From Terriglobia bacterium (GTDB taxonomy: Bacteria > Acidobacteriota > Terriglobia > Bryobacterales > Bryobacteraceae): a stretch of 64,000 nucleotides of DNA. Positions 6,279 to 8,991 of this stretch are shown here, one piece after another; the first letter of the stretch is position 1; each line of letters starts with the position of its first letter. Under the pieces are notes generated by a model. The model was not told where the DNA came from, did not search any database, and saw nothing but the letters and a program-made list of their open reading frames with translations. The stretch lies in assembly GCA_020073265.1 (NCBI GenBank), contig JAIQFN010000019.1, positions 1-64,000 of the forward strand. The letters are read 5' to 3'. A program made the position numbers and the translations under genes.

Positions 6279-6880
6279 GCTGATAAACTCCGTAGCGAGT
6301 TGTACACGCCCCGCACTTGTTCGAGCGTGCTTTCCTTGGTGCCCGACGTATCGATCACGTAGTCGGCCACGCGCACTTTCTCATCGAGCGGAAGCTGCCG
6401 GCTCAGCCGCGCCAGGACCTCTTCTCTCGTATACGGTCCTCGCTTCATAGCGCGTTCAATCTGCTGTTCCATGCTGCAAACCGCCACGATCAGCTTGTCG
6501 AACCTCTTATAACTTCCAGTTTCAACCAGAATCGCCGCCGCGACAACTACGATGGCGTCGGGGTCGGTGCGCTGGATCTCCTCGATCATCCGCCTCTGGC
6601 GTGCGCCCACCGCCGGATGCACCAGCCGGTTGAGCTTCTCCAGCATCTCCGGCTGATCGAAAACCAGCGCCGCCAGCTTGCGCCGGTCGATGAAACCCTC
6701 CTGGTCGAGAATCCGGTCGCCGAACAAGTTCACTACGTCGTCGAAAACTTCGGCGCCCGGCAGCAGCACCTGGTGCCCCAGCTCGTCGGCCTCGATCAAA
6801 TGGCAGCCCAGATCCGCCAGCGCCTGGCCGACGAAGCTCTTGCCGCTCGCTAGCCCGCCCGTCAGCCCTACCCGCAGCAT
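6275..6880 (-). CDS. coaE: Dephospho-CoA kinase
   Basis: Catalyses the last step of coenzyme A synthesis by phosphorylating the 3'-OH of dephospho-CoA. The 201-residue protein has the P-loop GLTGGLASGKS at the N terminus, then the EADELGHQVL substrate-binding block, and DxLIVAVC and RQLPLDEKVRVADYVIDTSG later, all typical of CoaE. It overlaps folD upstream by 13 bases and htrA downstream by four, so the three genes are probably one transcript. Confidence 0.95.
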   Translation of the reverse strand: MLRVGLTGGLASGKSFVGQALADLGCHLIEADELGHQVLLPGAEVFDDVVNLFGDRILDQEGFIDRRKLAALVFDQPEMLEKLNRLVHPAVGARQRRMIEEIQRTDPDAIVVVAAAILVETGSYKRFDKLIVAVCSMEQQIERAMKRGPYTREEVLARLSRQLPLDEKVRVADYVIDTSGTKESTLEQVRGVYNSLRSLSA

Positions 6881-7728
6881 AAATGCTGCTCGGCGGCGGC
6901 CACCGTGTTGGCCATCAGCATCGCGATGGTTAGCGGACCCACGCCTCCCGGCACCGGCGTATAAGCGCTAGCCAGTTCCAGCGCCGCCTCCGCATCCACG
7001 TCGCCTACTAACCCTTTGCCGTCCGGCCCGCGATTCTGTCCGACGTCGATGACCACGGCCCCCGGCCGGATGAACTCGCGCGTCACCAGCCGCGGCTTTC
7101 CGATGGCCGCCACCAGGATGTCCGCGCGCCGGCACTCCTCCGCCAGATTAGACGTCTTCGAGTGGCAGATGGTCACGGTCGCGCTCTGGTGCAGCAGCAG
7201 CAGGGCGATCGGCTTTCCGACGATATCGCTGCGCCCTATCACCACGGCTTTCTTGCCCGCGATCGGAATCTCGTAGCGCCGCAGCAGCTCTATGATCCCG
7301 GCCGGCGTGCAGGCCCGCGGCGCTGGAATATTCGCCACCAGGCTCCCCACGTTCATCGGATGAAACCCGTCGACGTCCTTGTCGGGCTTCACCGCCAGCA
7401 GAACGCGCCGGCTGTCCACCTGCTTGGGAAGCGGCACCTGCACCAGGATTCCATCGATCTCGCTGCGCTGGTTGAGTCCTTCGATGATGCCCAGCAAGTC
7501 ACCGGTCGAGATGGTGGCCGGCGGCGTGATCTTCTCGCTGTAGATGCCCAGGTCGCCGCAGGCCTTGGTCTTGCCGCGCACGTAGATCTCGGACGCGGGA
7601 TCGTTGCCTACCAACACCACAGCCAGGCCCGGCGGCCGGTGACTCGCCGTCAACTTCGCGACGCGCGGCCGCAGCTCCGCCAGAATCTGTTCCCGCACCC
7701 ATTTTCCATCCAGGATCTTGGCGCTCAC
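6868..7728 (-). CDS. folD: Bifunctional methylenetetrahydrofolate dehydrogenase / cyclohydrolase
   Basis: Interconverts 5,10-methylene- and 10-formyl-tetrahydrofolate, supplying one-carbon units for purine and Met-tRNA formylation. The 286-residue product has normal length. Diagnostic segments are YVRGKTKACGDLGI (catalytic Lys), PLPKQVDSRRVL, the NADP-binding VIGRSDIVGKP and the C-terminal PVPGGVGPLTIAMLM. It is the first gene of the minus-strand folD-coaE-htrA operon. A family-B palindrome lies just upstream of the start. Confidence 0.96.
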   Translation of the reverse strand: MSAKILDGKWVREQILAELRPRVAKLTASHRPPGLAVVLVGNDPASEIYVRGKTKACGDLGIYSEKITPPATISTGDLLGIIEGLNQRSEIDGILVQVPLPKQVDSRRVLLAVKPDKDVDGFHPMNVGSLVANIPAPRACTPAGIIELLRRYEIPIAGKKAVVIGRSDIVGKPIALLLLHQSATVTICHSKTSNLAEECRRADILVAAIGKPRLVTREFIRPGAVVIDVGQNRGPDGKGLVGDVDAEAALELASAYTPVPGGVGPLTIAMLMANTVAAAEQHLCCG

Positions 7729-7841: not shown

Positions 7842-8390
7842 TCACTTCGTTGGCCGCTTGCTCTTCGCCTTGGCCGGCGTCGCCCGCTCATTCAGCAGCT
7901 TCAGCGCCTGCTCGCGAATGTGCTGGTCCTGCTGGTCGTCGAAAAATTTCTCGTCCTTGCCGCTGTACTGCGCGCGAATCATCCCCTTGCGGTCGATGAA
8001 CACCATCAGCGGAACCAGCGGCCGCTCGTCCTTGGGCCACTGCAGATACTCGAGCGCCGGCGCCCCGCCCGCGATTCCCACCGGAAACGGCGGATTGAAC
8101 TGCCGCACGAAACCCGGAATGTCCGGGTTGTCGTTCACCGCGGCCTCCACCACCTCAAACCCCTTCGGACCGAGATCCTTCTGAATGCCACTCAGAACCT
8201 GAGTGGTTTTTTGGCAGTGCGGTCAAGTGGTGAGAATGAAGACCAGGCACAGCACCTTGCCGCGGTATTGGGTCACCAGCAGTTGCTTGTCACCCGCAAG
8301 CCCGATGACAAACTCCGGCGACTTCCGCGGTATCTCGATCCCGAAGGCCGAGGCGGCCACCAGCAAAAGCATGAATATCCGTCGACGCAT
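7842..8390 (-). CDS. Probable selenoprotein: secreted TlpA/AhpC-like redoxin with UxxC active site
   Basis: One reading frame of 182 residues is interrupted by a single TGA at 8223-8225, exactly where thioredoxin-fold proteins place the first active-site cysteine. The local sequence is VFILTT-U-PHCQKT, giving U56-P-H-C59. The frame stays open on both sides and reads as one redoxin: signal peptide (residues 1-17, RRRIFMLLLVAASAFG), strand-loop active site, the cis-Pro segment LVPLMVFIDRKG near 133, and a basic tail. A perfect hairpin starts 16 nt after the TGA, as in bacterial SECIS elements. The likely role is thiol-disulfide or peroxide chemistry outside the cytoplasm. The Sec machinery (selA, selB, selD) is not in the window. 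Alternatives are a TGC-to-TGA error or a nonsense mutation; the hairpin argues against both. Confidence 0.8.
8188..8206 (-). promoter_or_regulatory. SECIS-like hairpin downstream of in-frame UGA
   Basis: On the minus strand, CCACTCAG-GTT-CTGAGTGG forms an eight-pair perfect stem with a three-base loop, starting 16 nt after the UGA at 8225-8223. The apex AGGTTCT closely resembles the AGGTCT apex of the E. coli fdhF SECIS, where the loop G-U contacts SelB. It lies inside the coding sequence, as bacterial SECIS elements do. Confidence 0.72.
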
Positions 8391-8487
8391 TGGAAAATTT
8401 GAGTATACCGGACTCGCGAAGCCTATCGCGCTCAAACACCGGCGGACAGACTTCACGTCCGTGGCACTCTCATCAGAACGCGACTTC

Positions 8488-8769
8488 CTACACCAACTCC
8501 AGCCGAATCCGGCGACCGACTGCGACCGCGGCCTTTTGAAGCGTGCTCAACGTCACTGCGGCATTCTCCGGATCGAGAAGCCTGTCGAGCGCCGCTCTGC
8601 TGGTATGCATTCTCCGGGCCATCGCTGCTTTCGTGAGACCCTTTTGCTGCATGGCCGTTTCAACCTGGCGGGAAACCACTCGCTTGATAGCAGCCGCGCT
8701 GACCTCCTCATACAGGCCCTCCTCGCGAAGCCAACTGTCGAAAGATGATCCAATGTTCTTCTTCTTCAT
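8488..8769 (-). CDS. HigA-type HTH antitoxin-like protein
   Basis: A 93-residue protein beginning MKKKNIGSSFDSWLREEGL. It contains a helix-turn-helix (KAAMARRMHTSRAALDRLLDP) typical of XRE/HigA-like antitoxins paired with phage Gp49-type (HigB/RelE) toxins. I chose ATG 8769 because it overlaps the TGA of the remnant toxin frame by the ATGA arrangement usual in these toxin-antitoxin pairs; the longer upstream frame is not conserved-looking. Only the last codons of the toxin survive upstream, so the antitoxin appears orphaned. It may still act as a DNA-binding repressor. Confidence 0.85.
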   Translation of the reverse strand: MKKKNIGSSFDSWLREEGLYEEVSAAAIKRVVSRQVETAMQQKGLTKAAMARRMHTSRAALDRLLDPENAAVTLSTLQKAAVAVGRRIRLELV

Positions 8770-8831
8770 CCCGGTTGCCCCTTCTTGCGCTTGATCGCCA
8801 GGTCCAGGTCCTTTTTCGGAGTTTTCTGTCT
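8766..8831 (-). pseudogene. 3' remnant of a HigB/Gp49-type toxin gene
   Basis: In the frame ending at TGA 8766-8768 the sequence reads RQKTPKKDLDLAIKRKKGQPG. This is the characteristic end of phage Gp49-like toxins (usually FQKKTQKTPKKDLDLA). The frame is preceded directly by a stop, and nothing upstream resembles the rest of the toxin. The toxin is therefore truncated. Confidence 0.7.
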
Positions 8832-8991
8832 TCACAACCAGCGTATCATTTTTGATACAGGTCGGCAATACCCTTTGGTTGGGAGTCACCATCCGCACGA
8901 CGCTTTCTTCGCTTCCCCGTCAACTATTTCCATGCGCCACCCTGTGCCCGCAACTTCGCCCAATGCTATCCCGTTCCCAGGAGGCATTCCC

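Follow-up and report, generated by a model that had tools for sequence, protein, structure and literature searches.

The window, a 64,000-nucleotide stretch of DNA, almost certainly carries on its minus strand a gene for an envelope-type, ResA/TlpA-like thiol-disulfide oxidoreductase of the Redoxin/AhpC-TSA superfamily in which the catalytic residue is selenocysteine (Sec). This computational prediction is based on the reading frame, a TGA at a Cys position, a conserved SECIS-type hairpin, a genome that has the Sec machinery, purifying selection before and after the TGA and a thioredoxin-type fold. A first-pass annotation had already read the TGA as Sec, and that reading, itself predicted from sequence, is supported by the machinery, by the Cys homologues and by a hairpin that is kept only together with the TGA. 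The locus comprises the following features:

7842-8390, minus strand: predicted gene for a selenoprotein of the Redoxin family (182 residues, residue 56 being Sec); the true stop is the TGA at 7842-7844
8223-8225, minus strand: in-frame TGA, residue 56, first position of U-P-H-C; homologues align Cys codons with it, and 17 of 237 family genomes share the TGA
8214-8216, minus strand: TGC, encoding Cys59 at the second (resolving) position of UxxC, invariant in 12 of 12 aligned proteins
8340-8390, minus strand: N-terminal MRRRIFMLLLVAASAFG, which by its sequence probably is a signal peptide; model confidence is below 50 at residues 1-4 and 8-16
8188-8206, minus strand: bacterial SECIS hairpin of eight perfect pairs inside the coding sequence, 16 nt after the TGA, supported by folding, conservation and a covariance model
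8194-8200, minus strand: SECIS apex AGGTTCT with an invariant GGT; A26, G27, G28, T29 and T32 are invariant in the 17 TGA genes
6868-7728, minus strand: folD, directly downstream of the redoxin gene

A redoxin frame with a single internal TGA

Translation of the minus strand from 8390 to 7842 gives 182 residues and a final stop, and the sole internal stop is the TGA at codon 56 (...FILTT-*-PHCQKTTQVLSG...), which confirms the earlier claim that a TGA at the first active-site Cys is the only stop in a 182-codon redoxin frame. The protein passes the Pfam gathering cut-off for PF08534 (Redoxin; E = 1.2e-7, 32.1 bits against 26.6) and is also above the Pfam cut-off for PF00578 (AhpC-TSA; E = 1.8e-6, 28.3 bits), and its Pfam match spans the TGA. 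The two conventional open reading frames that had been named for the locus, 8223-8456 and 7842-8153, are both present in the ORF list, and a gene caller would probably report them as two genes. Since the window protein scores below the cut-off of every NCBIfam model, automated annotation may well give only fragments and thereby hide a redox enzyme.

One way to account for a TGA at a Cys position is a variant genetic code in which TGA stands for ordinary Cys or Trp throughout the organism. The redoxin gene, however, is itself terminated by a TGA (7842-7844), and TGA is thus apparently an ordinary stop as well in the window genome. Homologues have TGC or TGT at the site, L002 of the window genome itself among them, the TGA is accompanied by a specific hairpin, and the genome possesses the Sec machinery. 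Taken against these observations, a variant code is extremely improbable, and we continue with Sec as the residue at position 56.

Selenocysteine machinery

The window genome (6.4 Mb in 131 contigs, 98.18% complete, 3.34% contamination) has all four components for which the first-pass annotation had proposed a search. These are selA (442.6 bits, cut-off 267.9), selB (384.6 bits, cut-off 242.25), selD (376.5 bits, cut-off 125) and a tRNA-Sec with the anticodon TCA (76 bits). The selD gene itself has one in-frame TGA, which is followed by a hairpin with a GGT apex. Two formate-dehydrogenase-like loci of the same genome, both of which lie under the curated cut-off of TIGR01591, are judged from their sequences to be probable further selenoproteins. 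L128 (G000:C38:41111-42985) is fdhA-like and has an in-frame TGA before HAPSV, with a predicted hairpin whose apex is GGTCT, and L130 (G000:C100:61452-62219) has an in-frame TGA before HGPTV, where no clear SECIS was resolved. We take the TGA before these two motifs to be the known Sec site of formate dehydrogenase.

Across the 17 genomes with a TGA redoxin gene, selB is above its cut-off in 16, the exception being G481, which is 87% complete. It is also above the cut-off in all three Cys relatives tested (G004, G066 and G526), and absence of SelB therefore does not account for the Cys forms in these genomes. The tRNA-Sec search took in 10 of the 17 TGA genomes. Eight score at least 70 bits, G001 scores 54.6 bits, and G078 (72% complete) has no match above the level of the tRNA-Ser-like matches. 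Because a tRNA-Ser (L014) also passes the Rfam cut-off for tRNA-Sec, a tally over that cut-off is not clean, and we did not use one.

Predicted fold and proposed mechanism

An AlphaFold2 model based on 12 sequences, with Cys substituted for Sec, has a mean pLDDT of 87.4 and places residue 56 between a strand (46-52) and a helix (57-76). As in a thioredoxin fold, the motif is found where the first long helix begins, and P127, which is probably the cis-proline, is invariant in all 12 aligned proteins. The best 13 structural matches, mostly of the ResA and DsbE types, have Z-scores of 18.1-20.8 over 134-140 residues. In a profile search against sequences of solved structures, the top hit is 3c71, a ResA variant whose motif is CPHC. 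Each of the 12 aligned proteins matches the ResA model NF002854 at E <= 0.01, and the window protein, at 31.5 bits against 170, falls under the cut-off of that model; it is ResA-like and is not classed as ResA. In its predicted model the window protein is like the ResA/TlpA/DsbE oxidoreductases in fold, and it differs from them in having Sec for the first Cys.

In the mechanism that we propose, SelB with Sec-tRNA-Sec would bind the hairpin just 3' of the UGA, and selenocysteine would be delivered at the UGA rather than a release factor ending the chain. The product, which the first-pass annotation had called secreted, would probably be exported, as suggested by the resemblance of its N-terminus (MRRRIFMLLLVAASAFG) to a signal peptide. 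Sec56, placed where the first active-site helix begins, would then be the attacking selenol of a U-P-H-C motif with a DsbA-like dipeptide, and Cys59 would resolve the selenenyl-sulfide. We infer Sec insertion itself in this scheme, together with export, the redox direction and the partners.

We discarded a canonical peroxiredoxin role (PxxxTxxC(U)) on account of a mismatch in the motif. Residues 52-59 read I-L-T-T-U-P-H-C, in which the residue three before Sec56 is Leu53 and the residue three before Cys59 is Sec56 itself, and there is no Thr at either place. Sec-containing peroxiredoxins carry TxxU, according to the main text of a recent catalogue (PMC13188914). These proteins and the window protein are related through the AhpC-TSA superfamily, with Sec at the first motif position in the window protein and at the last in theirs.

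A SECIS-type hairpin downstream of the TGA

RNA folding of 8181-8225 yields an eight-pair hairpin at 8188-8206 with the apex AGGUUCU and an energy of -12.0 kcal/mol, and so reproduces the perfect eight-pair hairpin, starting 16 nt after the TGA, that had been noticed in the letters. A bulged U is important in the E. coli fdhF SECIS, and no bulged U of the fdhF type is present in the window hairpin. The limits given for bacterial SECIS elements in the main text of PMC13188914 are a loop of 3-9 nt, an upper stem of 4-16 bp, a G in the first two loop positions, a distance of 16-37 nt from UGA to loop and an energy of at most -7.5. The window hairpin lies inside these limits, with a loop of 3 nt (GUU), 8 bp, a UGA-to-loop distance of 24 nt and the energy given above. 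Scanned against Rfam at gathering thresholds, the window gave a tRNA and nothing else.

Considered by itself, the window hairpin is mildly unusual (z = -1.99, with 8 of 200 shuffles folding at least as well) and would be weak evidence; it is raised above chance because TGA and hairpin recur at the same codon in 17 family genomes. The window holds a single match to the combined pattern (TGA, motif and hairpin), against none in 100 shuffles, a contrast that shows rarity only, since the pattern was derived from the redoxin gene and its relatives. Viral contigs contained no exact match to the pattern.

TGA and Cys codons at residue 56

A protein search of 151 genomes found homologues in 147. Among the matches listed, codons were read at the highest-ranking place of each top genome, at 20 further stretches (all other listed places that contain an internal stop, together with some more) and at the paralogues in the window genome. 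The residue-56 codon in the resulting 59 tblastn rows is TGA in 11, which represent 10 distinct genes as L069 repeats L033, and TGC or TGT in the other 48. Cys at residue 56 of TlpA/AhpC-type homologues, which the first-pass annotation had suggested looking for, is thus the common state in these rows. Other flagged internal stops are not at residue 56; the visible ones are near the C-terminal end, and the rest are outside the tblastn alignment.

A search with the pattern of TGA, motif and hairpin core, allowing at most two mismatches, matched in 19 of 237 family genomes, of which 17 (from 10 genera) have TGA and two have Cys. A reversed control pattern gave a single match in the same 237 genomes. 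The newly found TGA genes read through into full-length redoxins. Sec and Cys versions also occur within one genus, as seen for G525 versus G526 and for G000-G003 versus G004.

Conservation of the hairpin

The hairpin is well preserved among the 17 TGA genes (15 distinct sequences), in which 93.3% of 105 cells are standard pairs, versus 27.6-34.3% in versions with the partners slid. In percentage paired, in doubly changed cells and in covariation score alike, none of 500 shuffles comes up to the TGA genes. Three of seven pairs have changes on both sides, and three of the seven never vary. Two of five covariation measures are unexceptional, namely the number of pairs changed on both sides, which 107 of 500 shuffles equal or exceed, and the further pair types (477 of 500), and the outermost pair of the hairpin fails in 7 of the 15 distinct TGA sequences.

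By comparison, 28 Cys homologues, drawn from 49 in hand, are 39.3% paired, which is no better than their slid versions (30.6-42.3%). Relatives that keep the TGA and lack the hairpin, a case that had been raised in advance as evidence against Sec, were not seen; the TGA relatives keep the hairpin, whereas the Cys relatives do not. Counted among the 28 are two near relatives of the TGA genes. G526 (L095) has TGC at the site and keeps the hairpin with its apex changed from GGT to GCT, and G066 (L081) has TGT and keeps the apex with a broken stem.

We made a covariance model (R1) from redoxin hairpins and no others, and ran it against 396 genomes of the phylum. The window scores 68.2 bits and the next best place 29.2 bits. 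At E <= 0.01 the model matches in 109 of the 396 genomes, with many weak places among them, and 12 loci were examined, the window's own included. At eight of the 11 other loci, the hairpin starts 25 nt after an in-frame TGA of a selD-like frame, and three of these frames that were scanned score 350-364 bits to TIGR00476. The spacing between UGA and hairpin in the selD genes found by R1 is 9 nt, or three codons, longer than in the redoxins. By the test applied, L117 and L127 are not selenoprotein genes, and L126 received no call either way. SelD is a recognised selenoprotein family in the main text of PMC13188914, and the recovery of selD by a model made from redoxin hairpins therefore identifies the redoxin hairpin as recognisably the same signal. 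A covariance search had been among the checks proposed at the outset, and its outcome favours the SECIS interpretation. The hairpin core common to the redoxin and selD genes may serve as a search model for other acidobacterial selenoproteins.

As a side observation, L117 (G201:C30:113595-113637), which ranks second to the window by R1 and is not in a redoxin frame, is a TGACCGCACTGCCAA sequence that forms one arm of a long inverted repeat.

Selection on both sides of the TGA

Selection was compared among four genes of the same genus. Between the window gene and L021 (G003), dN is 0.201 and dS 1.341 before the TGA, and dN is 0.235 and dS 1.312 beyond the hairpin codons; several of the dS values are saturated, and we therefore rely on the contrast and not on the figures. 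Low dN relative to dS on both sides of the TGA indicates that both halves are kept as protein. Synonymous differences between the window gene and L021 over the 14 codons after the TGA are 0.429, against about 0.62 elsewhere, and fall to 0.21 over the same codons in the comparisons with G001 and G002. Selection thus seems to preserve the hairpin stretch at the RNA level too.

These results bear on two further explanations of the TGA. It might belong to a pseudogene or be a sequencing error, with the hairpin arising by chance, and in this regard the window hairpin alone is only mildly significant and the assembly is fragmented (131 contigs). Such an accident would not place the identical TGA codon in 17 genomes of 10 genera, each followed by a full-length frame, nor would it leave purifying selection after the TGA in the four same-genus genes or changes on both sides of the hairpin pairs, and we give this explanation next to no weight. 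An alternative with slightly more to be said for it, though still very unlikely, is that the UGA really ends translation or works as a regulated switch, so that a short N-terminal product or an internally started protein would be the functional form and Sec would be inserted rarely. There is an in-frame GTG start after the TGA (7842-8153), and bacterial Sec insertion depends on selenium supply, both of which would suit a switch. The N-terminal 55 residues, however, are without most of the modelled fold, and both halves are constrained and align lengthwise with uninterrupted Cys homologues. A full-length protein with Sec at residue 56 remains the reading that we adopt.

Relation to catalogued selenoproteins

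The first-pass annotation had called the protein a probable new selenoprotein. It is a new acidobacterial member, but its kind was known already, as UxxC selenoproteins of the Redoxin type have been catalogued. A 2026 catalogue of prokaryotic selenoproteins includes in its main text a 'Redoxin family protein' with PF08534 and UxxC (example HEU0032618.1; PMC13188914), and the main text of a 2008 Global Ocean Sampling survey includes 'Prx-like 3', also UxxC, with 68 sequences and a weak match to pfam08534 (E >0.001; PMC2398784). Both are predicted selenoproteins assigned to PF08534 with Sec first in UxxC, as in the window protein; for HEU0032618.1 the likeness is one of description. Predicted UxxC selenoproteins of this Pfam family have been in print since 2008, and the window protein is therefore an addition to a known kind and not a new kind. 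The same catalogue text describes a Prx-like thiol:disulfide oxidoreductase with PF00578 and UxxC (PMC13188914). Compared by description, that family and the window protein have in common the UxxC motif and an AhpC/TSA-type domain, although the window protein matches PF08534 slightly better than PF00578 (32.1 versus 28.3 bits).

What is new is the acidobacterial lineage, of which the window protein is a well-supported member and in which there were probably several exchanges between Sec and Cys. The window lineage is acidobacterial, and neither 'acidobact' nor 'acidobacteri' occurs in the main text of PMC13188914 or PMC2398784; 'acidobacteri' is likewise absent from the main text of PMC5029168. 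Among the titles returned by searches of a set of open-licence papers, none describes an acidobacterial selenoredoxin. In the available text of PMC1794560, four selenoproteins of three families are counted for the Acidobacteria, with the families unnamed there, and the available text of PMC12013277 gives three known selenoprotein genes and no new ones for one acidobacterium.

Probable history of the Sec/Cys exchange

In a quickly built tree of 79 proteins, 17 with Sec and 62 with Cys, from which the SECIS codons were removed and the long row L003 was left out, the Sec and Cys labels need at least eight changes, five of them forced by starred branches; as the trees are unrooted, these counts do not separate gain of Sec from its loss. 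A tree uniting the 17 Sec rows in one clade is rejected (p-AU 3e-5), in a test made with the first tree already seen. That first tree, with 80 rows, likewise needs eight changes, four of which are forced. These are quick trees of chosen, not exhaustive, rows, made without bootstrap and containing a long Sec row (L054). It is somewhat more probable than the converse that the redoxin moved between Cys and Sec several times within one acidobacterial family and that some Cys copies, such as those of G526 and G066, are former selenoproteins with a decaying SECIS.

If that history is correct, the family would be a natural series for studying the gain and loss of selenocysteine. Since Sec and Cys versions occur in one genus, and even side by side in G078, one could weigh directly what selenium at a single active site costs against what it brings. 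The pair in G078 (L069, G078:C27, rows 583 and 1156) consists of tandem redoxins in one genome, the Cys copy followed by the Sec copy.

Gene neighbourhood

Six loci were compared for their gene neighbourhoods, and they offered no functional lead. In the window, L023 and L024, folD lies directly 3' of the redoxin gene, and in L021 it follows after another ORF. Of the six, the Cys relative L022 (G004) has no folD 3' of its redoxin gene, and L022 may therefore not be a positional counterpart. Upstream of the redoxin gene in the window (8488-8898, minus strand), a small protein has a match to a Cro/C1-type helix-turn-helix right at the Pfam cut-off.
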